Shown here piece by piece: positions 16,758-56,470 of a DNA stretch of 64,000 bases (position 1 is the first letter of the stretch; each line of letters begins with the position of its first letter). The DNA comes from Diphasiastrum complanatum (Eukaryota > Streptophyta > Lycopodiopsida > Lycopodiales > Lycopodiaceae). The position numbers and the translations under genes were made by a program. The stretch is taken from positions 1,053,530 through 1,117,529 of the forward strand of contig CM055103.1 of assembly GCA_029204225.1 (NCBI GenBank), in the 5' to 3' direction. The notes under the pieces were generated by a model. It saw only the letters and a list, made by a program, of their open reading frames with translations, searched no databases and was not told where the DNA came from.

Positions 16758-16762
16758 GGCAC

Positions 16763-16906
16763 TATTGGAATATCAATCCACACTATAGAGAGAACTATCA
16801 AACAGGGCGGATAGCTCAATGGTAGAGCATCTCATCCGGTATGAGAGAAATCCTGGGTTCGAATCCTAGTCTGTCCATCCATATTATGATTTATGGATTT
16901 CTAACA
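16763..16906 (+). repeat. TRIM LTR A (144 bp, with tRNA-like module)
   Basis: It begins TATTGGAATATC (canonical TG mutated to TA) and ends TTTCTAACA; LTR B (22400-22543) has the same length and is nearly identical. It is directly followed by a PBS-like TGGTATCAGAG. The preceding GGCAC (16758-16762) pairs with GGCAT (22799-22803) after LTR C as a target-site duplication with one change. Confidence 0.85.
16805..16877 (+). tRNA. tRNA-like cloverleaf inside TRIM LTR A
   Basis: 73 nt that fold as a full cloverleaf. Acceptor GGGCGGA pairs with TCTGTCC (two G-T pairs). D stem GCTC/GAGC. Anticodon stem TCTCA/TGAGA is perfect, with the 7-nt loop TCCGGTA. T stem CTGGG/CCTAG has loop TTCGAAT. Internal pol III boxes are intact: box A region TAGCTCAATGG, box B GGTTCGAATCC. 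By strict numbering the anticodon is CGG, but base 33 is C instead of the near-universal T; shifting one base gives CCG. The variable loop is 6 nt. It is probably a tRNA-derived promoter module rather than a working tRNA gene. Confidence 0.7.
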
Positions 16907-16917
16907 TGGTATCAGAG
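16907..16917 (+). promoter_or_regulatory. TRIM PBS, left piece, cut by copia D
   Basis: TGGTATCAGAG directly follows LTR A. TATCAGAG (16910-16917) is repeated at 22286-22293, where the TRIM internal sequence resumes with CCAAGTTAG. Copia D therefore inserted inside the PBS. Confidence 0.85.
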
Positions 16918-16972
16918 TTGAGAATATAGTTTAAAACCTGAATGAATCAATCACCATAGCACAACGTCAAGT

Positions 16973-17173
16973 GGAATCAAACAAGACAACAAAATTGCTC
17001 TCTCACAAACTGTATATTCACACTAATCAGCAAGTACAAAGATAAAGTTTCTTAAGAGCACTTAAAGGGCTCGTATAAGAAAGACAGCCCGATAATTCTA
17101 GAGCTGAGCACACGTGGTACCGTCAAAAGTAGAAAGCACTATATAAGTCGATCATTGCTATTTTAACTCTCTC
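16973..17173 (-). repeat. Copia D 3' LTR (shared part)
   Basis: Matches 22085-22285 over about 200 bp (for example ATTGCTCTCTCACAAA, GAGCACACGTGGTACCGTCAA). The LTR probably extends left to 16918, but the 5' LTR lacks that end. Just upstream in the element's sense lies TTGAGGGAGAGAG, a polypurine tract. Confidence 0.8.
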
Positions 17174-17269
17174 CCTCAATGATCAATGTCTCTCTTTATT
17201 TTAAAGTTTACTCTATTCATGGAACATACATCCATGATAGTATCATAAGTGAAAAAAAAATTCTTTTTT

Positions 17270-17827
17270 TTACATAACCAAATCTAAGCCAAGTTTGGCT
17301 CTAAAAGTTTCAAACTTCTCTTTACTTAAAGCTTTCATAAATATATCAGCAACTTGCAACAACGTAGAACAGTGTACAATACTTATATCTTCAAATTGTA
17401 GCTTTTCACGCACAAAGTGATATTTAACCTCAATATGTTTTGTTCTCGCATGAAAGACAAGATTCTTAGCCAATTGTATCCCACTTTGGCTATCAAAAAA
17501 AATAATAGTAGGATGTACCTGCTTCATGCTAATCTCACGTAACAACTTATGCAACCAAATAGCTTCTTGAGTGGTAGAACTTAACGCTTTATATTCAGCT
17601 TCTGTAGAAGAAAGAGAAATGGTGTCCCGCTTCTTGCTAGACCATGAAAAACAACCGCTACCAAAATTGAAAGCATAACCTGTTGTTGACTTTCTATCAT
17701 CTACATTTCCTGCCCAATCAACATCAACATAACCTTGCAACTTAGGTAAAGTACTTTGTCTTTTGTAGACCAAGCCAAGGTTAGGTGTACCTTTCACGTA
17801 CCTCAAATCCTTCTCGCGGCTTTCCAA
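17270..17827 (-). pseudogene. pol: Copia D RNase H
   Basis: The frame contains YVDVDWAGNVDDRKSTTGY (first catalytic Asp), SLSSTEAEYKALS (Glu), FFDSQSGIQLAKN (Asp) and HARTKHIEVKYHFVREK, then VADIFMKALSKEKF and a natural stop at LGLDLVM. This is a complete copia RNase H in order and length. It overlaps a different frame (17803-18045), so a frameshift separates it from RT. Confidence 0.93.
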
Positions 17828-18576
17828 TAATCCATAGTGGGTGATGACATGAATTGACCAATCAGACTTATAGCATAGCAGATATCAGGACGTGTAAGAT
17901 AGATCAAACTCCCAACTAGTTGACGAAATAAAGTAGGATCAACCTGTGCACTATCGTCAACACGAGACAACTTCTTACCAGTTTCGCAAGAGGTGATGGA
18001 AGGTTTGCACTCTGTCATGCGAAATTTCTCTAATATCTTGAGCACGTACTTGTTTTGACATAACCTAATATCATTGCCAGTTTGCTATACTTCGACATCC
18101 AAGCAATAGTGCAAAAGATCTAAATCTATCATCTCAAATTGCTTGCACAAGTTGGCTTTGATAGAATGAATGATATATTATCATCATTGCCCGTGATAAT
18201 AATATCATCAACATAAAGTACAATCAAGGAAATGTTATTTTTGTTTATAAGAACATAAAGATTTGGATCTGAATTTGTTCTTACAAACTCATGAGAAAGA
18301 AAGTAATTGTTAATGAGTCCATACCATGCGCGTGGCGCTTGCTTAAGGCCATAAAGTGCTTTGCGTAGCTTGCACACCTTATGTTCTTGTCCTATTTGCC
18401 ATAAAGCCATGTGATTGGAGCATGTAAACTTCTTTCTCTAAGTCAACATTCAAAAATGCAGACTTCACATCCATTTGATGGATCTTCCACCCAAAATGAA
18501 ATGATAAGGTGTAGCATAGTCCACTTAGCCACTGGAGCAAATATTTCTTCGTAGTCAATTCCTTTGTTCTGCTCAT
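17803..18576 (-). pseudogene. pol: Copia D reverse transcriptase (three frames)
   Basis: From right to left: KIHQMDVKSAFLNVDLEKEV (first catalytic Asp; the usual Gly after Asn is Val), KLRKALYGLKQAPRAWY, the polymerase box LYVDDIIITGND, and finally FRMTECKPSITSCETGKKLS with GSLIYLTRPDICYA. Frames change at about 18400 and about 18090. Otherwise the domain is complete. Confidence 0.92.
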
Positions 18577-19934
18577 AGCCCTTCACTACTAGACGTGCCT
18601 TATGTTTTGCTATTGTGTCATCCGCATGAAACTTTGTCCTAAACACCCATTTGTTGTCAATGGGTTTCTTTCCCAGTGGTAGATCAACTAACTCCCACGT
18701 ACCATGTCTATGGATGGACTCCATCTCCTCTTCCATTGCCCTTTTTCATGCTTTGTGATCCTTTGCCTCATCAAAGGTTGATGGCTCTCGACACTTCAAA
18801 ATGTCACTCATTAGGGCATAGTTGACATGATAGCAATTGGGAGGCTTCCTTCCCCGCGTTGATCTTCTCACTTCTTCTTGTGTGCTAGATCTTGGTTGAT
18901 TTAGCTTTGTGTCCTTCATGATCTTTTCATTCCATTTTGGTATCTTAGACTCAGGTGATACACTTTGTGGAGAGTATGTGTCCCAAGGAGTGTCCAAGTA
19001 ATGACTCTTACATCAACCGGCTTCTCTCTCCTATCAGCAAGTACCTTCCTCTAGGCTCTTGGATAGGTGGTGTCCTCTCCTACTCACCCCCTCGACCTTT
19101 ATCTTCATGTGCATCATCCTGTGGAGCGTCTTCTTGATCTTCTTCTTCCAAGACTGTGGGAAGTCTTTTGATGCTTTCATCACCTGCATGGTCTTCATCT
19201 TCATACCTATGCGTCTCATCAAAGATTACATCTTTGCTTATGTGAATCTTTTTTCATTATAGGATCAAAACACCTGTATGCCTTCATCCTCTCATCATAA
19301 CTGACAAAGATACACTTGATTGCTTTGGCATCAAGTTTTCTTCGCTCCTCCTTTGGCACATGTACATAGGCCCTACATCTAATGACATGAATCTTGTCAG
19401 TTTTTGGCTTTATTCCTGTAAATGCTTCTTCGGGATTCATATTTGGAACCACAACTATAGGGCTCTTGTTTTGCAAGAACATTGTTGCACTGCACGCTTC
19501 CGACCAAAGTGAATCGGTTAAGCCCATTTGCTTCATCATGGAGCATGCACTCTCCATAATAGTCCTATTTCTCCTTTCAGCTACACCATTACTATGCGAC
19601 GTGTGTGATTGTGTGAATTGTATTTGATGTCGTGTTCCTTGCAAAAGTCCTCAAAATCATCAGATTTGTATTCGCCCCCTCTATTGGATCTTAACACTTT
19701 GATGCGTGCATCCAGTTGGTTCTCTACTAAAGCCTTAAACTCCTTGAAGCGAGCAAAAGCATCAGATTTCTTCTTCAAGAAATAAATCCATCTCCTCCTA
19801 GAGTAATCATCTATGAAAGTCATAAAATAATAGAGTTTTCCCTTATGGTTGTGGTTGATATCCTTCATTAGACATCCATCCTTGACAAATTCAACCTTGA
19901 GATGTTGATTTGCCATCACACCAACAGAAAGCAA
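18443..19934 (-). pseudogene. pol: Copia D integrase, linker and RT start
   Basis: From 19934 the frame reads [20 protein letters not shown] and then jumps directly to [20 protein letters not shown]. The HHCC zinc-binding segment and the first catalytic Asp region have therefore been deleted. [13 protein letters not shown] carries an Asn where the second catalytic Asp is expected. The next frame (19644-19219) gives [20 protein letters not shown] and the C-terminal motifs. A linker frame (18997-18746) and the RT fingers (18736-18443; HKARLVVKGYEQNKGIDYEE) follow. The integrase could not work. Confidence 0.92.
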
Positions 19935-20039
19935 ACTCTTCTTGAGTCCAAGAACATAAAGCTAATTAGGGATATTGTTGATTTTACCATCAGGAAACTG
20001 CACAGGTACATTGCCAACATTAGAGAAGTTTTGAGCTCC

Positions 20040-20403
20040 AAACAAACCCTTTAAGAATTCGTGCAAGATGTAGTTTATATTATTAAAATATTATAGCACT
20101 AATACTTTTGACTTGCCATAACTTTTTAATCGTAGCTCAAAAGTATGTCATGTAACAAATCATTGGAAACCCTTGTTGAGCGCTTTCCATTGCACTAAAC
20201 TCTGCTAAATTCGGACTTACCACTAAAAAGCTATGCCATTTTCAGTGTGGAATCAAAATGTGGACTCAAAAAGTTACGTTAAGTAGATTTCAAATTTGAG
20301 TGTTTTGATTGGTCCATGTGTAAGAAAAAATTGAGAAAAAATATAAAAAGAATCTTTACAAAGGGTCTTTTTTGAATTTATAACTCCTCTAATGCACCTG
20401 GTA
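20040..20403. mobile_element. Fold-back/MITE-like insertion in copia D
   Basis: About 360 bp interrupts the copia protease frame: ECQIPG is on one side and VGNVPVQFPDG on the other. The inserted DNA matches the left arm of the fold-back element at 55985-56470 (AAAAAGTTACGT, TTTGATTGGTCCATGTGTAA). It also matches that element's right arm in inverted form (GTATGTCATGTAACA). It has no ORF. Exact ends and target duplication could not be fixed by eye. Confidence 0.7.
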
Positions 20404-20700
20404 TTTGGCATTCCTCCCCATTGGCTTGTGTGTCCTTGTCCCCATCATGAATTGGTGAGAATTTCTCAAACCAATCGCCTTTCCCGGACATATGCCTTGT
20501 GGCGCCTGAATCTATGAACCATCTGGCACCATCATCAACCTGAGATGCCAATGCCGATGAGAAGACACTTGTCTCGTCATCTTCCCCATCATTTTTGGCA
20601 ATGTTGCCTTGTTGCTTCACTTTTCCCGCCTTTATGTCCGCTTTCTTCTTGTAACACTCACGTGCCCAATGACCCAGTTTCTAACAATAGTAACATTTAC
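20378..20700 (-). pseudogene. gag-pol: Copia D zinc knuckle and protease
   Basis: The minus strand shows a zinc-knuckle remnant (CYYC, stop, LGHWARECYKKK) near 20690-20650. The protease site RWFIDSGATRHMSGKGDWFE follows near 20520. The frame ends in the fold-back insertion at about 20400. Confidence 0.9.
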
Positions 20701-20837
20701 CTTCTTTTTCATTTTCACCTTTTATGACGACTCTCTCTCGTCATCATCATCCTTGGATTTCTTAGGAATCCTCTTCCACCCTTTCTGCTTGCCTTTAGCA
20801 AGCAATGCTTGATCATCCTGTGGGGTTTGCCTTGACT

Positions 20838-21370
20838 TCACCACCTCACGGTGCTGCTCTTCCTGCAACATGATCTATGAAAGTCTTCAAAAGTAGGCAA
20901 TCTCTCCCTCGAAGCAATGTCGCTCACGAACATTTGTAGACCTTCCGTAACACCTCTCATAATGGTATGTACCAATTCAACGTCCCTAATTGGTTCTCCA
21001 ATTGCCACAAGTTGATCTCTCAGCTCCTTTATCCTAGTGAAGAAAGATCCCACTGATTCGTCTTCTTCCATCCTGATTGTGTTTAATCTTGACTTCAAGA
21101 ACATGGCTCGATCTGGATTGAAAGTTGAAATTGCATTCTAAAGCTTCCCAGGCTCCCCTAGCTATCGTGGCATCACTTATATGTGTGATCACATGGTCTT
21201 TCATTGAAAGGTTGATCAAGGACAATGCTCTATGCGTCTTTTTAACAAAGACCCTCATGTCACCTAGAGTGATATTAGGCCGGACTTCAATACCTGCAAC
21301 AATGTCCCATAACTCCTTCTCCATCAAAATGCTATTCATTTTGAATTTTCAGATGTTGTATTTAGAAGCC
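20838..21370 (-). pseudogene. gag: Copia D Gag
   Basis: From 21339 the frame gives MNSILMEKELWDIVAGIEVR and then LSLINLSMKDHVITHISDAT. The second frame (21104-20838) gives MFLKSRLNTIRMEEDESVGS and IRDVELVHTIMRGV with ASRERLPTFEDFHRS. This is the copia Gag core, split by a frameshift at about 21100. The true start is upstream near 21425 and is damaged. Confidence 0.9.
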
Positions 21371-21439
21371 CCATCAAGTTTGCTTGCATCGATCAAAATC
21401 ACCTCATTGATGTTTGTCATTTCCAAACTGCTAGAAACT

Positions 21440-22084
21440 CCACCTGTTGGCTAAAAAGTGTATGCCAAAGCCAATTGTGATGTCAAAAATAAAAAATAAT
21501 GCTCAAGCCACCCACTGCTTTTCTGCCAAATTGAAAGCCAAATTGGCGTCACCTTTCAAAATGCTTCTTGTTAACAACTCCCAAGTACGTGCACTCTGAA
21601 TCACTTTCTTTGCAGCAATCACTCTGTTTTGACGTACCATACTTGCAGGTACAGTTAGGGTGCCCTTCGTTTGGAGGCTATAGCCTTTCGTTTGGCCAAA
21701 ATAGGCTAAAAGAAGTGAAAATAAAGGCAATTTAAGTTTTTGAACTATCTTTTTACCTTGAGAAGACTTCACTCTTCACCAACTTCAGGACCCAACTCAA
21801 GTTTCAAGTTGAAAATTTGTAAAGAAGTTGAAGTGTGATTTACACTTCAAACCCCTTTCACTCTTTCATGGGTTCCTTTATTTGCCATCCAATGGTAACC
21901 TGCGATCCGACGGCCTTAGCTCGTCCTTTAGAATTTGATCTCCACCATGTATCTTTCATAGCCTCAATCCAATGATCATAGGCTTCTAGGTGCACCCTAC
22001 ATGCTTCTTGGGATCGCTACACTCCTCCATGCACTACGGGACTAACGCGACTGGCTGCGCACATTGGCCCGCGACCTCCCACCA
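21440..22084 (-). other. Copia D leader remnant
   Basis: Alignable with the leaders of copia B and copia E, including the conserved block (21615-21674) with GTACC/GGTAC. The part nearest the PBS is deleted: the leader joins the LTR at CACCAT-GTCAAGTG, where the 3' LTR has eight extra bases, suggesting a small-homology deletion. Confidence 0.7.
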
Positions 22085-22285
22085 TGTCAAGTGCAATCAG
22101 ACAAGACAACATAATTGCTCTCTCACAAATTGTATATTCACACTAATCAGCAAGTACAAAGATACTCTCTTAAGAGCACTTAAAGGGCTCATAAAAGAAA
22201 GAGGGCCCGATAATTCTAGAACTGAGCACACGTGGTACCGTCAAAATTAGAAAGCAGTGTATAAGCCGATCATTGCTATTTTAAC
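22085..22285 (-). repeat. Copia D 5' LTR (end truncated)
   Basis: About 200 bp matching 16973-17173. It is followed on the plus strand by TATCAGAG and the resumed TRIM sequence. No PBS adjoins its inner edge. Confidence 0.8.
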
Positions 22286-22399
22286 TATCAGAGCCAAGTT
22301 AGACCTAACAGTTCATGGTGTCAAAGCCATGGTAAAGTGGCCCGAGTTGTGGGGCAGGTGACAGCTAGGACCCCAACCCAGTGTGGCTTGAGGGGGGGG
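22286..22399 (+). other. TRIM internal domain 1 (right piece) with polypurine tract
   Basis: Continues the PBS (TATCAGAGCCAAG) and closely matches internal domain 2 (22544-22659) up to GTGTGGCTTGAGGGGGGG, the polypurine tract. It is about 115 bp and holds no ORF. Confidence 0.85.
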
Positions 22400-22543
22400 T
22401 GTTGGAATATTAATCCACACTCTACAGAGAACTATCAAACAGGGCGGATAGCTCAGTGGTAGAGCATCCCATCCGATATGAGAGAGGTCTTGGGTTCGAA
22501 TCCTAGTCTGTCCATCCATATTGTGATTTATGGATTTCCAACA
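22400..22543 (+). repeat. TRIM LTR B (144 bp, with tRNA-like module)
   Basis: Begins TGTTGGAATATTAATCC and ends GGATTTCCAACA, giving 8-bp inverted ends TGTTGGAA/TTCCAACA. It is preceded by a polypurine tract and followed immediately by PBS TGGTATCAGAGCC. It is the best-preserved LTR of the three. Confidence 0.9.
22442..22514 (+). tRNA. tRNA-like cloverleaf inside TRIM LTR B
   Basis: 73 nt, the same fold as in LTR A. Acceptor GGGCGGA/TCTGTCC, D stem GCTC/GAGC, T stem TTGGG/CCTAG with loop TTCGAAT. Box A region TAGCTCAGTGG and box B GGTTCGAATCC both fit the pol III consensus. The anticodon stem TCCCA/TGAGA has one mismatch and the loop is TCCGATA. No T-run terminator follows at once, so a transcript would read on into the LTR end and internal domain. 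Confidence 0.7.
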
Positions 22544-22659
22544 TGGTATCAGAGCCAAGTTAGACCTAACAATTCATGGTGTCAAAGCCATGGTTAGGTG
22601 GCCCAAGTTGTGGGGCAGGTAACAGCTAGGACCCCAACCAAGTGTGGCTTGAGCGGGGG
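22544..22659 (+). other. TRIM internal domain 2 (PBS to polypurine tract)
   Basis: 116 bp: PBS TGGTATCAGAGCC at 22544-22556, an unremarkable middle, and the polypurine tract TTGAGCGGGGG at 22649-22659. It has no coding capacity, so reverse transcription and integration proteins must come from other elements. Confidence 0.88.
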
Positions 22660-22798
22660 TGTTGGAATATCAATCTACACTCTAGAGAGAACTATCAAAC
22701 ATGGTGGATAGCTCAGTGGTAGATTATCCCATCCAGTATGAGGGAGGTCCTGTGTTTGAATCCTGTCCATCCATATTATGATTTATGGATTTCTAATA
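22660..22798 (+). repeat. TRIM LTR C (139 bp, decayed tRNA-like module)
   Basis: Begins TGTTGGAATATCAATC and ends TTTCTAATA (final CA mutated). GGCAT at 22799-22803 matches GGCAC before LTR A. The array is therefore LTR-internal-LTR-internal-LTR with a shared middle LTR, apart from the copia D insertion. Confidence 0.85.
22702..22769 (+). pseudogene. Degenerate tRNA-like module in LTR C
   Basis: Aligned to the modules in LTR A and B, but box B has become TGTTTGAATCC, the D stem GAGC has become GATT, and about 5 nt are missing before the 3' acceptor strand. The fold is lost. Confidence 0.7.
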
Positions 22799-22803
22799 GG
22801 CAT

Positions 22804-47178: not shown

Positions 47179-47831
47179 TGTGAAAAATTGTCAACTAGTA
47201 GTATTTTCCTAACTTGAGATTTTGTAGGCCTATGGCCAAATAAAAGTTAGAGATAGGTTCATACATGTATGTAGAGGCCCAAAGTATGTGTACACTACTT
47301 TTGAGGTCACATTAATTAGAGGAGGTCGAGTGTGGAGCTCTTCTATTGGCTCATAATTTGGTGCATTCCTATTTGACCAAATTTCTAGGTAGATGGGTGA
47401 ATCCTATTGGACCCCAATTTTAGCCTATCATAAGACAAGTGGCCAAGAGGCACTATGGCTGCTATAAATAGCCATCTCCACGAGTATGTACATATCTCAT
47501 TTTCATTCTATTGAATGAATGTTATGCTCTTTGAAGATCCATCTTCTTCTCTCTCACTTTTTTGTTCATATCTTGCATTCTAGCCACTAGAATTGTGATT
47601 TCTTTGTTGCTATGGCTTCACACGTGTGAAATGCAGGTTGTAGGCTCTGAAGTACGGACAGGGACAGCAAGTTTCTGTTTGTGGAAGCTTATGATCAGAT
47701 CTTGATGTTTAGTTGATGTTTAGTATGCTTAACATCACAATTTCTATCATTTTTTCAATCTAGATGTGCATAACTTCCATGGCCAAGATCTTTATGAAAC
47801 TTTAGCATCTTTTGGATCTGAGTTTTTCACA
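47179..47831 (+). repeat. 5' LTR of the young copia
   Basis: TGTGAAAAATTG...TTTTTCACA, with inverted ends TGTGAAAAA/TTTTTCACA. The TATA box TATAAATA lies at 47463-47470, 284 bp into the LTR, so transcription should start shortly after. CACACGTGTG (about 47620) is a palindromic G-box-like element downstream of the TATA box. Confidence 0.97.
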
Positions 47832-47849
47832 TGGTATCAGAGCATTAGG
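47832..47849 (+). promoter_or_regulatory. Primer binding site, tRNA-iMet
   Basis: TGGTATCAGAGCATTAGG abuts the LTR with no gap; the first 12 bases complement the initiator tRNA-Met 3' end. Confidence 0.95.
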
Positions 47850-48440
47850 CGGCCAAATGTGCAGGTTTTGCCAGATTTAGAAGAGATTTGTGGGCGAGTT
47901 TGCTTTTGTAGCATTCCAATCAAGTTTCTAGCTAAAAATCTTGTTGATTTATGTGTAGAAATTGGATCTTTGTGATCAAAACATCATTTGTATGCATTTC
48001 AATTGAAGTAGGGCGAATTCCCTCTGTACTTATCAGAATAAGGAGACAAAATTTGTTTTGGAAAGAGGGAGATGCAAGATCCAACAAGATCCTATTAGTT
48101 TTCCATTCTAGCATATAGTTTTTTGATTCAATTTCTTGCTTCTTCATGTCAAAAACTTCAAAATTGATGTAACCCTCTGATTTTCAGTTTGCTGAATGAT
48201 TCAAGAGTGTATTTCAATCTTAGGAGTGAGGGAAAAGCAAGTATATTGAGGTTTGGTCTTGGTTTGATCAAGAAATCATAAAACTAGTGGCTAAAATTGA
48301 GGAAAAAGTGAGGAAAAGAGAGAAAAAGTAAGGTTTTAGGTTCCAAATCTTTGTGATTTCTTCTTGTGTTTCATTTGTTGATTCAAGAGAGTGCTTAGTG
48401 CATTGGAACAGGTCAAAGATCAGAGATCAATCATTGCAAC
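47850..48440 (+). other. Leader of the young copia
   Basis: About 590 bp without a competing long ORF, leading to the ATG at 48441 (AACATGGC context). Confidence 0.8.
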
Positions 48441-51400
48441 ATGGCTACAAATGGAGGCTACATGTTGGAAAGCAATGATAGGCTTACCTCCCTCAACTAT
48501 TCTACTTGGAAAGTAAGGATGGAGTCTTTGCTTGAGATGAATGAGTTGATGGATATTGTTGTAGGTGTGGAGGAGAGACCTTTGGCACCTCAAGAACAAT
48601 TGAGGTATGACAAGAGGGCAAAGAAAGCCCTTCACATGATCAAGATGAATGTGACAAATGAGCTTATCAAAGAGGTTGGTAAGTGCACATCATCTAGTGA
48701 AGCTTGGGAAGCCTTGAAGAAGGTTTATGAATCCAAGTCTACTTCTAGAGTGTTGACTTTAAGAAGGCAAATCTTTTCTTGTATGCAAAAGAAGAGTGAG
48801 AGTGGACATGCTTTTGTTTTGAGAGTTAAAGCATTGAATGATGAGTTAGCATGCATTAATGATGGCATAAATAATGAGGAGCTTGTTCAAGTGATTCTCA
48901 ATGGCTTGTTGGATGATCATGCTAATCTTGTTCAAAGTTATGCTATCCAAAAATGTTTACCAAGTGTTGGAGACTTGCAAGAGGTCTTGTTGGCTGAAGA
49001 ATTCAGGTTGCAAGCAAGAGTGGGAACATCTTCTACATCTCAAGGAGGAGAAGAGGAGGCAATGTTCTCTAAAGGCAAGTTCAAGGGCAAAGGTAAAAGC
49101 AATTGGTCTAAAGGGCAAGACCAAGGTGAGCACTCTACTTTTGGCAAAAAGAAGGATAGATCTAAGCTAAAATGTTTCTATTGTGGAGTCAAAGGGCATT
49201 TTGCTAGTGATTGTTTCAAGAAAAAGAGGGATCAAGGGGAAAAGCAAACCAATCTAACTATTGATGAGGGTGGGGATGAGCTTCTTTCAAATGATGCTTT
49301 TGTTATGTCATCTTGCTTGTTGGCTAATCATGGAGACATTGATCCTTGGTGGATTGATAGTGGAGCCACTTCTCATATGACATATCATAAAGAGTATTTT
49401 TCATCTTTAATGGCATTTGATGGTGATAGGAAGGTAATCTATACCGCAAATGATGGTGAGTGTACAATCAAGGGGATTGGCACAATTCCTATTTCACTTT
49501 CTACAAATAGGAATATAGAATTGAAAGATGTTTTGCTCATTCCATCCATTACCAAGAACTTACTTAGTGTAAGCCAAATGCTTGACAAAGGATTCAAAGT
49601 TGAGTTTGATGGTGATGCTTGCTTGATCAAAAAGGGGTGTAGTATCATTGCAAAAGGGAAAAGGCAAGGGAAATTGTTCAAGCTTGATGCATGTGTTGTT
49701 GCTAACCAAGTTGGATGCATGGCAAATGAACAAATGTCAATTCAAGAGGTATGGCATAAAAGGATGGGACATCTCAACTACAAGGCCTTGGAGGTAATAG
49801 CCAAAAAGGAGGTAGTAAGGGGACTTCCCAAGTCTCTTACTTGCTTGAATCATGTTTGTGAAGAATGTGCTTTGTCTAAATCACATAGATTGCCATATAC
49901 TAGATCTATATCTAGATCTAAGATGCCTTTTTCTCTCTTGCATTCGGATATTCATGGTGTTACTACAATTAGCAATGGAGGTGCTAAGATGTATGTAACT
50001 TTCATTGATGATTTTAGTAGATTTTGTTGGGTTTATCTACTAAAGAGCAAGGATGAGGTGTTTGATGTGTTTGTCAAGTTCAAAGTTGCTATTGAGACTC
50101 AATTTACAACCAAAATCAAATGCTTGAGGAGCGACAATGGTGGTGAATACATTTCTAACAAATTCAAAGCCTTTTGTGATGAGCATGGGATCAAGAGGGA
50201 GTACACATGTCCAAGAACACCACAACAAAATGGAGTGGCCGAGAGGAAGAATAGAACCTTGTGTGAGAGTGCAAAGGCAATGAGATTGAATGCTAATCTT
50301 CCTAAACCTTTTTGGAGTGATGCTTTGTTGTGTGCAAATTTCCTTTGCAATAGATGGCCAAGTGTTGTATTGGAAGGAAAAACCCCTTTTGAAGCTTTGT
50401 TTGGTATGAAGCCTAATGTCAAGTTTCTAAGAACTTTTGGATGCATTTGCTACTTCAACATTACTCTTGATGATAGAACTAAGGAGGATCCATCTTCAAG
50501 AAAGGGCATTTTTGTTGGTTATAGTGAAGTAAGCAAAGCATATAGGATTTATGTTCCTTCAATCAAGAAAGTGTTCACAAGTAGGGATGTCATTTTTGAT
50601 GAAAGTAACATTCCAAAAGTTGTTTCAAGTGATGATGGTGTTGTTGCAACTAATGTGCTTGATGACAATGGAGTTGATGACACATTGGATGTGGATGTTG
50701 AAGAAGCCTCTTCAAGTCAAATTCCAAGGAGAACTCCAAGGCATAAAGTGAAACCCTCAAGGCTCACTTATGATGGCAAAGGTAAGCAAGTGGTGGATGG
50801 ATCCAACTATGCTTTCCTAACTTCTTTTGATGTACCTTCATGTGTAGATGAAGCAAGGCAAAAAGAGGAATGGATCCAAGCAATGGATCTTGAGTTTGAA
50901 GCACTTATGAAGAACAACACATGGAGATTGGTGGAGCTTCCAAAGGGCAAAAGTGCAATTGGATGCAAATGGATCTTCAAGGTAAAGACAAATCAAGATG
51001 GATCTATCAACAAGTTCAAGGCAAGGTTGGTGGCTAAAGGTTATGCTCAAGAGCATGGCATTGACTATGAGGAAACCTTTGCACCCGTGGCAAAGATGGT
51101 GAGCATAAGAGTAATCATTTCCCTTGCAACTCTTTATGGATGGGATCTTTGGCAATTAGACATTTCTAATGCTTTCTTGAATGGTGATCTTGAAGAGGAA
51201 GTCTACATGGAGCAACCCGAGAGCTATGTTTCTCATAGCAAGCCTAATCATGTGTGTTTTCTACAAAAAAGTTTGTATGGTCTTAAGCAAGCACCAAGGA
51301 GTTGGTATGCTAGGCTTAACTCTTTTCTACTTTCTCAAAACTTCACTATGAGTGAGTATGATCATTCACTTTACTTTAGAATTAGTGCTAATGATGTTAC

Positions 51401-52391
51401 AATCCTTCTAATTTATGTGGATGACATTATTTTAAGTGGAGGGAACAAGGAAGATATAGAAGATATCAAGAAAGCACTAAAAAAGGAATTTGAAGTGCAT
51501 GATCTTGGTCTTTTGAGCTATATCTTAGGAATAGAAGTAATTAGAACTTCTCAAATCACTTTTATTTCACAAGAGAAGTATGCTATTTCTATTCTCAATA
51601 GATTTCATATGGTAGATGCAAATCCTATTGATACACCTATGGAATCACATGTAAAGCTAACTATAAGAGGTAATGAAAGATCCTTCGAGGACATTACTCT
51701 CTATAGGAAGCTAATAGGTTCTCTTATATATCTAACCATCACAAGACCTGATTTATCTTATTGTGTTGGTAGATTAAGCCAATTCATGCAAGATCCTAGC
51801 ATAGAACATTGGAAACTAGGAAAGAGGATCTTGAGATACATCTCGGGAACAAAAGATTTTGGCATTGTTTATAGAGGCTCATCACCTAACTTATTTGGTT
51901 TTTCAGATTCAGATTTTGCAGGAGACCTTATGGATAGAAAATCCATAAATGCACATGCTATTTTCATAGGTGATGGAGCTATCTCATGGATGTCGAAGAA
52001 ACAAGCAACTATATCACTTTCTTCTAGTGAGGCCGAGTACAAAGCTTTGACATCATGCACAAAGGAGATGGTGTGGATCAAGAGGATGATTATGGAGCTT
52101 CATTTGCTGGATTTTTCAGAGAGTCCAATCATCTTTTGTGACAACCTTTCAGCCCAAAGTCTAGCAAGCAATCCGGTTTTCCATGCAAGGAGCAAACATA
52201 TCGAGGTGGCTTATCATTTTGTGAGAGAACAAGTGTTGGCAAAAGAGATCAAGCTTGAACATGTCCCATCAAAGGAATGTGTGGCTGATATCTTTACCAA
52301 AGCATTGGGAAAGGACTTATTTTTCAAGCATAGAACAAGTCTTGGTGTACTCTCTAAATCTATGCTAAAACTAGTTGAAGAGGGAGTGTGA
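48441..52391 (+). CDS. gag-pol: Gag-Pol polyprotein of the young copia (1316 aa, intact)
   Basis: A single frame supplies all proteins for retrotransposition. Gag (about 1-230) is followed by the zinc knuckle C245-C248-H253-C258. The aspartic protease active site is D306 in WWIDSGATSHMT. The integrase zinc part is H439-H444-C473-C476, with catalytic D503, D565 and E601 (D-D-35-E). RT (about 824-1068) has first Asp D907 in LWQLDISNAFLNG and polymerase box YVDD at 992-995. RNase H has D1158, E1197 (SSSEAEYKAL) and D1234, ending with ADIFTKALGK. Length and domain order (PR-INT-RT-RH) are normal for copia. The start is the first Met before the Gag domain. The stop TGA overlaps the first bases of the 3' LTR. 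No frameshift or missing catalytic residue was seen. Confidence 0.97.
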   Translation: MATNGGYMLESNDRLTSLNYSTWKVRMESLLEMNELMDIVVGVEERPLAPQEQLRYDKRAKKALHMIKMNVTNELIKEVGKCTSSSEAWEALKKVYESKSTSRVLTLRRQIFSCMQKKSESGHAFVLRVKALNDELACINDGINNEELVQVILNGLLDDHANLVQSYAIQKCLPSVGDLQEVLLAEEFRLQARVGTSSTSQGGEEEAMFSKGKFKGKGKSNWSKGQDQGEHSTFGKKKDRSKLKCFYCGVKGHFASDCFKKKRDQGEKQTNLTIDEGGDELLSNDAFVMSSCLLANHGDIDPWWIDSGATSHMTYHKEYFSSLMAFDGDRKVIYTANDGECTIKGIGTIPISLSTNRNIELKDVLLIPSITKNLLSVSQMLDKGFKVEFDGDACLIKKGCSIIAKGKRQGKLFKLDACVVANQVGCMANEQMSIQEVWHKRMGHLNYKALEVIAKKEVVRGLPKSLTCLNHVCEECALSKSHRLPYTRSISRSKMPFSLLHSDIHGVTTISNGGAKMYVTFIDDFSRFCWVYLLKSKDEVFDVFVKFKVAIETQFTTKIKCLRSDNGGEYISNKFKAFCDEHGIKREYTCPRTPQQNGVAERKNRTLCESAKAMRLNANLPKPFWSDALLCANFLCNRWPSVVLEGKTPFEALFGMKPNVKFLRTFGCICYFNITLDDRTKEDPSSRKGIFVGYSEVSKAYRIYVPSIKKVFTSRDVIFDESNIPKVVSSDDGVVATNVLDDNGVDDTLDVDVEEASSSQIPRRTPRHKVKPSRLTYDGKGKQVVDGSNYAFLTSFDVPSCVDEARQKEEWIQAMDLEFEALMKNNTWRLVELPKGKSAIGCKWIFKVKTNQDGSINKFKARLVAKGYAQEHGIDYEETFAPVAKMVSIRVIISLATLYGWDLWQLDISNAFLNGDLEEEVYMEQPESYVSHSKPNHVCFLQKSLYGLKQAPRSWYARLNSFLLSQNFTMSEYDHSLYFRISANDVTILLIYVDDIILSGGNKEDIEDIKKALKKEFEVHDLGLLSYILGIEVIRTSQITFISQEKYAISILNRFHMVDANPIDTPMESHVKLTIRGNERSFEDITLYRKLIGSLIYLTITRPDLSYCVGRLSQFMQDPSIEHWKLGKRILRYISGTKDFGIVYRGSSPNLFGFSDSDFAGDLMDRKSINAHAIFIGDGAISWMSKKQATISLSSSEAEYKALTSCTKEMVWIKRMIMELHLLDFSESPIIFCDNLSAQSLASNPVFHARSKHIEVAYHFVREQVLAKEIKLEHVPSKECVADIFTKALGKDLFFKHRTSLGVLSKSMLKLVEEGV
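52372..52386 (+). promoter_or_regulatory. Polypurine tract of the young copia
   Basis: GAAGAGGGAG ends directly at the 3' LTR. It is the expected RNase H-resistant plus-strand primer. Confidence 0.9.
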
Positions 52392-53039
52392 AAAATTGTC
52401 AACTAGTAGTATTTTCCTAACTTGAGATTTTGTAGGCCTATGGCCAAATAAAAGTTAGAGATAGGTTCATACATGTATGTAGAGGCCCAAAGCATGTGTA
52501 CACTACTTTTGAGGTCACATTAATTAGAGGAGGTCGAGTGTGGAGCTCTTCTATTGGCTCATAATTTGGTGCATTCCTATTTGACCAAATTTCTAGGTAG
52601 ATGGGTGAATCCTATTGGACCCCAATTTTAGCCTATCATAAGACAAGTGGCCAAGAGGCACTATGGCTGCTATAAATAGCCATCTCCACGAGTATGTACA
52701 TATCTCATTTTCATTCTATTGAATGAATGTTATGCTCTTTGAAGATCCATCTTCTTCTCTCTCACTTTTTTGTTCATATCTTGCATTCTAGCCACTAGAA
52801 TTGTGATTTCTTTGTTGCTATGGCTTCACACGTGTGAAATGCAGGTTGTAGGCTCTGAAGTACGGACAGGGACAGCAAGTTTCTGTTTGTGGAAGCTTAT
52901 GATCAGATCTTGATGTTTAGTTGATGTTTAGTATGCTTAACATCACAATTTCTATCATTTTTTCAATCTAGATGTGCATAACTTCCATGGCCAAGATCTT
53001 TATGAAACTTTAGCATCTTTTGGATCTGAGTTTTTCACA
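52387..53039 (+). repeat. 3' LTR of the young copia
   Basis: 653 bp, one difference from the 5' LTR. TATA box at 52671-52678. It is followed by TATTA (53040-53044). Confidence 0.97.
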
Positions 53040-53212
53040 TATTACATCATCCTTATAACATTGGCACTAACACTTTGTCTTTATTGGCCCTCTATATATT
53101 GCAATCAACATGTTGACTGAATGCATAGCCGATTCAACCAAAGGCTATAAATATATGATTAGATCGAGATTGCATCGTTAACTTAGAGTAACCTTGTAAT
53201 TAGTACATTCAA
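53040..53212. other. Right TSD and old flank of the insertion
   Basis: TATTA, then 170 bp with no gene, up to the start of gypsy K2 similarity at 53213. Confidence 0.6.
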
Positions 53213-54640: not shown

Positions 54641-55984
54641 TCATTGCAAAGCGGAAAGTTTGAAATCCAAAACTTTTAATAGTTCATGGCTTCCTCAATT
54701 TTTTTTATGATATGAGACATATTATGGAGGTTGGATCCCCATCAATGATTATTTGAAGTTGGAGCTCTCAATTTTCAAGACATAGATCATTTGCTGCATT
54801 TGCAATGTGCATCCTTATTGTTGTAGCTCTCTTGAAGCTCTCTGATAAATTGTTGTTGAAGTTTGAAGTTCATTGTTTCAAAGATTTTTTTTATTCTTTC
54901 AAGTTCCAACCATTTAGACATGTTTGCCCATATCTTATAATAGCTCATGACTCATACTACAAGTATTAAATAATTAATGTATTCAATTGAAATAGAATCT
55001 ATTTTTTGATACATAGATCGTTCCTCCAGTACATGTGATTTGGTACCTTGTAAGCAAGCAGCTCCAGCACTCTAGTTTGTGTCGCTAGCTGTAGCAAACA
55101 GATTTCTTGTAGGTAGCTAGCCTGGGTCTGTGATTCCATAGACAAAGGCTATTTTCAAAGTCCACAATAAAAAAGGCCACCAAAAAAATTAGTCTTTGAT
55201 ATCACTAAATTCTAGCTATCTTGCTATGACTTATGAACTGGTCATTTATGCATTCTTTTTACCAAACATCCAAGAAACATTACTAAGATGATGGGCTATT
55301 TATTAAGAAAATCCTTAACACTTGTGCTCGAAAGGAGAATCCTTAATCTTTCTAAATTGCGCTAATGTTTTTTTTTTTCTTAATGATGCATGGGAAGATG
55401 ATGAGGATCACATGCATGAGAACAAATTATTGTGTTTTGTGTCCTAATCTTGTTATTTTAGAGGAGAATGATCTAAATTGACTATTGATTAGAGTTCTAC
55501 ATCTTTAATTGTTAGTGAATGTTGTGACATGTGAGATCCAAATGAAGGAAAACTATAAGTGACCGTTGGCATGCATCTAGATGCACAACTTCATGGATAA
55601 GCTAAATTATCGTAGATTAACGGTCATATTCGGTTTGAAGATTTTGTTCTAGAAAACCAAATTTGAAGGTTTTGATTTCGATAACCTCTAGTAAGCAAAC
55701 AATGAGCAATTAGCTATATCCAATACAAGTACAATCCATGTATTCACACACACACACACACACATGGGCTCATTCTCTAGACATTGGCTATCAAACTTGC
55801 CATCTCCTCAAATGTTGCTCCTCTCCCACTTGTTTTTAGTAGGGCTCATCCTTGGCATATCAACCACAAAGTAGTGTTATTTAAATTTTTCTCTAAATTA
55901 GACTTTTTAGTAGTTTAATTATGTTGAATAAAATCATTGGTGTATTCCTTGTAGGCTTTCTAATTAGGACTGCATGAAGTCATT
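54641..55984. other. No identified gene; small (CA)n at 55745-55764
   Basis: AT-rich sequence with no convincing frame or repeat partner in the window, apart from the short CA tract. Confidence 0.5.
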
Positions 55985-56470
55985 GGAAAGCCCTTGTCAG
56001 ACACTTTTCAATGCACCAAACTCCACTGAAATCAGACCCACCATTAAAAAGTTATGCCATTTTTAGTGTGGACTCAAAATATGGACTCAAAAAGTTACGT
56101 TTCGTAGATTTCAAACTTGAGTGTTTTGATTGGTCCATGTGTAAGAAAAATTTGAGAAAAAATATAAAAATAATCACAAAAGGGCTAAAAGCATGGTTTG
56201 TTGGTACATAAAAAAATCCATTTTTTCATTGTGCCTTTTGGTAGTACACTTCACTTTTTGGGGATTTTATTACTCATAATTGTTTTGAGTCCACATTAAA
56301 AATGACATGACTTTTTAGTGTTAGGCCCAACAGCAAAGTTTGGTGCATTAGAGAAAAGTGTTGACAAGCACTTTCCAATGATATGTTACATGACATACTT
56401 CCGAGCTACGGTTAAAAAGTTATGGCAAGTCCAAAGTTATGGGGATTTTATTAATCATGATTAATTAGAT
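55985..56470. mobile_element. Fold-back/MITE-like element
   Basis: The left arm (about 55985-56110) and the reverse complement of the right arm (about 56282-56450) agree over long stretches: AATGCACCAAACT, AAAAAGTTATGCCAT versus AAAAAGTCATGTCAT, and GTGTGGACTCAAAA. It has no ORF. A related piece sits inside copia D (20040-20403), which shows the family moves. Exact ends are unresolved. Confidence 0.72.

Follow-up and report, generated by a model that had tools for sequence, protein, structure and literature searches.

In a 64,000-nucleotide stretch of the lycopod Diphasiastrum complanatum (the window; NCBI GenBank assembly GCA_029204225.1, contig CM055103.1, positions 1,053,530 to 1,117,529 of the forward strand), positions 16763-22798 are best read as one tandem terminal-repeat retrotransposon in miniature (TRIM) with three long terminal repeats (LTRs), into which a copia element has inserted in antisense near the primer binding site (PBS) of the first unit. 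Each LTR encloses a module resembling a transfer RNA (tRNA) gene. The explanation that we favour, and consider probable, is that the element is a non-coding TRIM of the Helenus (TRIMp3) kind, present in high copy number, with a putative RNA polymerase III (pol III) type-2 promoter in its LTR, and that it is mobilised by a copia family with which it forms hybrids at the PBS junction.

The tandem element and its two families

The layout at the locus is LTR-internal-LTR-internal-LTR, with the antisense copia in the first internal domain. LTR1 and LTR2 are 92% identical and LTR3 is 86% identical to each of the other two; LTR2 has the ends TGTTGGAA/TTCCAACA, and there are point changes in the ends of LTR1 and LTR3. 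The PBS TGGTATCAGAGC, which we take to be of the initiator methionine tRNA (tRNA-iMet) type, matches exactly at 22544 and with one mismatch at 16907. The two internal domains are 94% alike over 113 nt, and a G-rich tract stands at the end of both. The flanking bases, GGCAC before 16763 and GGCAT after 22798, match at four of five positions and are a probable target site duplication (TSD). A first reading of the window, made from the sequence only, had placed three LTRs, PBS, internal domains and G-rich tracts here, and the LTR and internal comparisons confirm it. Because the identical LTR type recurs genome-wide, the LTR structure is not a chance resemblance. The features of the locus are as follows.

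16758..16762, no strand: 5' TSD GGCAC, 4/5 against GGCAT at 22799-22803 (5-bp TSDs are the family norm)
16763..16906, plus strand: LTR1, 144 bp, from LTR comparison
16805..16877, plus strand: tRNA-like module in LTR1, from ARAGORN and RF00005 (52.8 bits)
16812-16822, plus strand: box A of the LTR1 module, TAGCTCAATGG, by motif reading
16856-16866, plus strand: box B of the LTR1 module, GGTTCGAATCC, by motif reading
16907..16918, plus strand: PBS of the first unit (presumably tRNA-iMet type, one mismatch), by sequence match
16919..22285, minus strand: later insertion of a decayed antisense copia in the first internal domain, from sequence reading and repeat comparison
16960-17171 and 22080-22289: LTR-like repeats of this copia, last 3-4 bases ambiguous
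22286..22399, plus strand: internal domain 1, its 5' end cut by the copia insertion, by sequence reading
22390-22399, plus strand: polypurine tract of internal domain 1
22400..22543, plus strand: LTR2, 144 bp, the shared middle LTR of the tandem, from LTR comparison
22442..22514, plus strand: tRNA-like module in LTR2 (box A 22449-22459, box B 22493-22503), from ARAGORN and RF00005 (44.5 bits)
22544..22659, plus strand: internal domain 2 (exact PBS 22544-22555, polypurine tract 22650-22659)
22660..22798, plus strand: LTR3, 139 bp, from LTR comparison
22703..22773, plus strand: decayed tRNA-like module in LTR3, box A kept and box B mutated, 80.6% identical to the LTR1 module over 72 nt
22799..22803, no strand: 3' TSD GGCAT, from flank comparison

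Some 47 bp between the first PBS and the left copia LTR are unexplained. A CAA start-type motif adjoins the LTR1 module on its upstream side.

ARAGORN called the LTR1 module as tRNA-Pro (CGG) and the LTR2 module as tRNA-Ser (CGA), and both scored above the gathering score of 29 for the Rfam tRNA profile RF00005, in which search the LTR3 module gave no tRNA match at E<=1. The sequence-only reading, which had suggested such a profile check, thus holds in placing a tRNA-like module in all three LTRs, one of them decayed. Its statement that two modules fold as cloverleaves holds for LTR1, where minimum free energy gives a clean cloverleaf (z -1.66, matched by 14 of 200 shuffles), and fails for LTR2, where it gives none (z 0.07). 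Free energy supports the cloverleaf in LTR1 only; the tRNA signal comes from ARAGORN, the Rfam profile and the box motifs. In the suggested comparison with host tRNAs, 20 of the 63 scored tRNA matches were used and the highest identity was 0.68; on that value no parent tRNA is named.

Genome-wide searches were made in the window's own 1.74-Gb assembly. With LTR2 as query, 40 of 1290 candidates were scored, and all 40 matches span 144/144 positions. These 40 places lie in 39 loci (numbered here with L; L019 holds two and L001 is the window's own), a sample biased toward copies near the query. Most loci are LTR-internal-LTR. Longer arrays of three or four LTRs stand at L019, L039 and L025, and L017, L022 and L038 are solo LTRs flanked by TSDs. 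Among the simple complete elements, picked by script, 23 measure 392-409 bp (14 of them exactly 404 bp), and their LTR pairs differ at 1-10 sites. Perfect 5-bp TSDs flank 20 of these 23 (all except L013, L031 and L034), or 18 of 21 once two element pairs with common flanks are merged, so that full copies with TSDs, whose search the sequence-only reading had proposed, are indeed present.

That reading had also named copies without the module as the sign of a one-off insertion. Exact LTR flanks separated by a 60-90 nt gap occur at 1046 places genome-wide (reversed control, 0), and all 100 of these that were listed carry module letters. With a gap of 0-30 nt, three places were found, each with module remnants, and within the reach of exact flanks no empty ancestral LTR was found genome-wide. 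The TRIM is therefore supported as a multicopy family of which the module is a property, and the one-off insertion of a tRNA or short interspersed nuclear element (SINE) is rejected on these counts. LTRs with the module partly or completely deleted internally were seen at L015, L039 and L078-L080; at L015, one LTR has lost the module and adjoining bases. Several loci have the same flanks at different assembly places (L004/L008, L005/L010, L120/L125, L121/L124) and are probably haplotype or segmental duplicates. A scan of viral contigs with one LTR pattern gave 0 matches.

A second TRIM family with a related module was first seen in the flank of L019 (1204-1570, minus strand), with further copies at L081-L094. 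Its elements measure about 379 bp, with an LTR of 153 bp and an internal domain of about 73 bp. The search for it gave 86 matches (40 scored of 674 candidates); of 14 fetched copies, nine have perfect 5-bp TSDs and five do not, and RF00005 matches these 14 loci 28 times, twice per locus, at 35-58 bits. When 38 distinct family-1 LTRs were compared with 27 distinct family-2 LTRs, identity was 0.96-0.98 in box A and the D arm (box A, 0.96), 0.73 in the anticodon arm, about 0.6 in the acceptor arms and 0.44-0.50 in the LTR flanks. More diverged LTR-like copies with tRNA-like modules stand beside family 1 in L019 (1798-1985 and 1562-1630), which suggests that there are more related families.

Hybrids with a copia family

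At two loci (L003/L041 and L032/L040), a TRIM LTR precedes a long internal region that differs from that of the TRIM and leads to a copia gag. From the copia family concerned, 30 copies were fetched (40 scored, 1286 candidates). In 27 of the 30, the PBS is preceded by the family's own LTR end, TTCCTACA, with no module, and in one by another sequence; the remaining two, L044 (the place of L041) and L059 (the place of L074), have a TRIM LTR with the module. The full copia LTR, measured on L077 alone, is some 410-460 bp long, and L077 has just the 12-nt PBS in common with the TRIM internal domain. In protein searches, the named matches among the best 120 of 248 and of 1222 came mostly from flowering plants, at 28-47% identity.

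L040 has the order TRIM LTR, copia PBS and internal region, copia LTR, TRIM internal domain, TRIM LTR. Its outer TRIM LTRs are identical (144/144), GATAC stands on both sides, and its copia coding sequence is broken over several frames. L074 follows the same logic; its TRIM internal domain is shortened and a TRIM tandem is present in addition. Near its end the last LTR carries a small deletion, and if the terminal ACA is put at that point, TAAGT flanks the element on both sides. At L041, a TRIM LTR is followed by the copia PBS and by internal sequence that matches gag and integrase; the 3' end of this element was not found.

A pattern consisting of the copia LTR end joined to the TRIM internal domain occurs at 58 places with <=2 mismatches. 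The copia-specific start GCTTTCCT is kept at 21 of them (13 exact, 8 changed), and the other 37 are TRIM-LTR-like or ambiguous. Around each of the 12 exact junctions besides L040, about 580 bp were fetched, and all 12 read copia LTR, TRIM internal domain, TRIM LTR. Two junction pairs look like duplicates, leaving 10 distinct loci, or 12 hybrid loci with L040 and L074. L120/L125 shows the hybrid junction in broken form, with a deletion, and in L116, L122 and L126 a further PBS-like sequence follows, as in longer arrays. In the hybrids, the TRIM and copia parts are joined where U5 meets the PBS, a junction that both elements share. Through these 12 loci, the hybrids point to this copia family as the likely helper of the TRIM, via template switching or recombination of cDNA, and the earlier proposal of mobilisation by copia is probably right.

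Other observations concern copia elements and fetched loci generally. A repeat of about 210 bp is common to the antisense copia and elsewhere in the window (20104-20368, 55977-56437) and is perhaps a small DNA transposon. At 47179-53040, the window holds a young copia whose 654-bp direct repeats, 99.8% identical, enclose a 1316-codon frame without interruption. L115 (C16:31660032-31660874) is a broken nuclear copy of plastid matK.

Promoter signals and the weighing of explanations

Loose box A and box B motifs occur together in 28 of the 38 distinct family-1 LTRs and 24 of the 27 distinct family-2 LTRs, against 0 of 13000 mononucleotide shuffles; stricter motifs are found together in 24 of the 38. 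A CAA lies <=10 nt upstream of the module in 37 of the 38 family-1 LTRs and in 21 of the 23 family-2 LTRs that could be assessed (of 27), compared with 9 of 20 host tRNA genes. Upstream CAA is reported for 36-45% of flowering-plant tRNA genes, in a text that describes the motif as a usual start site (PMC11700998). Only 42 bp of LTR lie upstream of the module. We infer from these signals that pol III transcription would start at the LTR module. Copia L077 has 11 T runs of >=4 within about 330 nt after its PBS, so that pol III would hardly read through the copia.

Under the favoured explanation, the tRNA-derived module would supply an internal type-2 promoter, and transcription would begin close to the CAA that lies directly ahead of the 5' LTR module. 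The transcript would run through the PBS, internal domain and polypurine tract into the 3' LTR, which would make the module itself part of the R repeat. The copia family would supply an initiator-tRNA-primed reverse transcriptase and the integrase that makes 5-bp TSDs. If TRIM and copia RNAs were packaged together in one particle, minus-strand synthesis on the TRIM RNA could reach the PBS and move to the copia RNA at the shared ACATGGTATCAGAGC; normal copia strand transfer would then give the inner copia LTR, and plus-strand transfer the TRIM LTRs at both ends. Such a switch with its transfers matches the layout of L040 and L074.

Several results weigh against this explanation. Box B is just 0.71 identical between the two families. 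Within family 1, the module is more variable (0.028) than the LTR flanks (0.008-0.010; permutation 0.999, in the wrong direction), and boxes A and B show no special conservation (0.79 when set against other LTR sites and 0.44 against the remainder of the module). Purifying selection on the boxes within family 1 was thus not seen, in a test that has little power since most inserted copies are expected to drift. TTTT is absent from 22 of 23 family-1 elements, and since 51% of dinucleotide shuffles of one element likewise lack it, this absence is not significant as a mark of selection for pol III. In family 2, 24 of 27 LTRs contain TTTT (close to the 3' end in the printed ones), so some pol III should stop in the 5' LTR. 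As for the hybrids, L040 and L074 are the two seen whole with TSDs, the other 10 loci having been seen around the junction alone. They were counted for one copia family, and an exclusive helper would be a larger claim than this count suggests. At L043 (L013), the PBS of another internal region follows the second TRIM LTR, and this locus may be a hybrid with a different element. Lastly, the hybrids are no proof of co-packaging, as recombination of cDNA or of chromosomal copies could yield them.

This last route, homologous recombination at the shared ACATGGTATCAGAGC outside reverse transcription, is the alternative that survives best, and we regard it as possible. The junction homology is 15 nt, and recombination of cDNA and illegitimate recombination are among the sources of tandem LTR elements discussed in PMC11899658. 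The identical outer LTRs of L040 with their one TSD pair are, however, as for a single fresh insertion, and L042 joins copia pol to the TRIM PBS at ACAT, a homology of 4 nt.

Rather unlikely, in our judgement, is that pol II drives the LTR and that the module is left over from a SINE or tRNA gene that entered an ancestral LTR a single time. The lack of excess box conservation in family 1, the poor folds of the second and third modules in the window and the called anticodons, which differ among copies, fit such a relic. It fits less well that the module-length spacing is held at the 1046 exact-flank LTRs, that family 2 keeps box A at 0.96 identity while its LTR flanks are near 0.5, that so little LTR lies upstream of the module, and that the CAA motif is retained in both families.

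Parentage and known relatives

We disfavour, as improbable, the view that the TRIM derives by internal deletion from the long elements with a TRIM LTR and that these are its true autonomous parent. L041 and L074 do show a TRIM LTR leading into the copia PBS and internal region, with gag and integrase matches in L041. Yet 27 of the 30 fetched copia copies have a different LTR end, the shared sequence with L077 is confined to the PBS, and the copia LTR sits inside the TRIM ends in L040 and L074. The sequence-only reading had held that a coding element with the same LTR would count against it; such elements occur (L040, L041, L074), but L040 and L074 are hybrids, and on the 30 fetched copia copies, 27 of which have their own LTR end, a coding parent with the same native LTR is rejected. 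A rice case is similar in layout. OsajRetroS10 is a 408-bp TRIM, and the long copia OsajLTRA10 has the TRIM LTR and a second 'LTR end + TGGTATCAGAGCC', a duplication resembling L040; PMC4717578, whose main text does not contain the word tRNA, takes OsajLTRA10 as the autonomous element from which the TRIM derived. By analogy, OsajLTRA10 may itself be a hybrid.

That the modules are genuine tRNA genes (or a cluster of them) lying in repeats and working in translation is very improbable and is rejected: ARAGORN and Rfam do match them, but the called anticodons are inconsistent between family-1 copies and incomplete in family 2, the base before the called anticodon in LTR1 is C instead of U, the RF00005 scores are 30-58 bits, where 60 of the 63 scored tRNA matches in the genome have 59-75, and the modules sit inside LTRs of elements with TSDs.

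Only tentatively do we draw the wider picture of two plant Helenus families in one genome, one of them copied by a copia with unrelated LTRs, in which switching at the PBS junction keeps yielding copia elements enclosed by tRNA-type pol III LTRs. If true, a protein-coding retrotransposon could in this way gain new LTRs of the pol III type, and elements reported as autonomous parents of TRIMs, rice OsajLTRA10 among them, would be reclassified as hybrids. With one copia family indicated by the hybrids, and >1000 TRIM LTR copies in the genome, pol III use and helper dependence are directly testable. We would like to note that an LTR in common with a long coding element is no proof of TRIM parenthood, and that genomes of this sort can yield inflated counts of tRNA genes.

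Among known systems, tRNA-derived SINEs also have a tRNA head with boxes A and B; they lack LTRs and move by target-primed reverse transcription, and the window element differs from them in its LTRs, PBS, polypurine tract and 5-bp TSDs. With Cassandra TRIMs, it shares a non-autonomous LTR structure, a pol III gene promoter (here putative) in the LTR and tandem arrays. ARAGORN, RF00005 and the box motifs support the parallel with Cassandra drawn in the sequence-only reading, in which the LTR holds a tRNA-like module with type-2 boxes. Cassandra carries a 5S rRNA module, whereas in the window RF00005 alone reaches its gathering score.

The same reading knew of no described family with this make-up; one had in fact been named. 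Kojima 2024 (PMC10886601) first described the Helenus type (TRIMp3), TRIMs with tRNA-derived sequence in the LTR from fungi, animals and one plant, and 'Helenus and Ajax' are named also in a meeting report. As given there, Helenus elements are short and non-coding, with two LTRs and a size of 311-1263 bp, box A motifs TRGCY and YGG, a box B GGTTC, a PBS and a polypurine tract on either side of the internal part, 5-bp TSDs in fungi and plants, tandem arrays in one family, and a tRNA part with disagreeing isotypes in tRNAscan-SE and unlikely to work as a tRNA; pol III transcription is not proven in that text. The one plant listed is Selaginella moellendorffii (LTR 120 bp, internal domain 85 bp), and searches among open-licence PMC papers found no published angiosperm Helenus. 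The discussion in PMC10886601 expects no long LTR sharing between a TRIMp3 and its helper, which a native copia with its own LTR fits, and leaves open how helper dependence is maintained and which element moves most families.

Our elements share with Helenus, as so described, the TRIM structure, tRNA-derived sequence in both LTRs, boxes A and B, PBS and polypurine tract, 5-bp TSDs and tandem arrays, and their sizes (392-409 bp in family 1, about 379 bp in family 2) lie within its range. They differ in dimensions (LTR 144 and internal domain 116 bp; LTR 153 and about 73 bp), the Selaginella member being compared by its description only, and in the apparent tRNA-iMet-type PBS and the hybrids with one copia family. 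The window TRIM is thus a new member of Helenus and no new kind of element, and it takes plant Helenus beyond Selaginella, in a genome that holds two such families.

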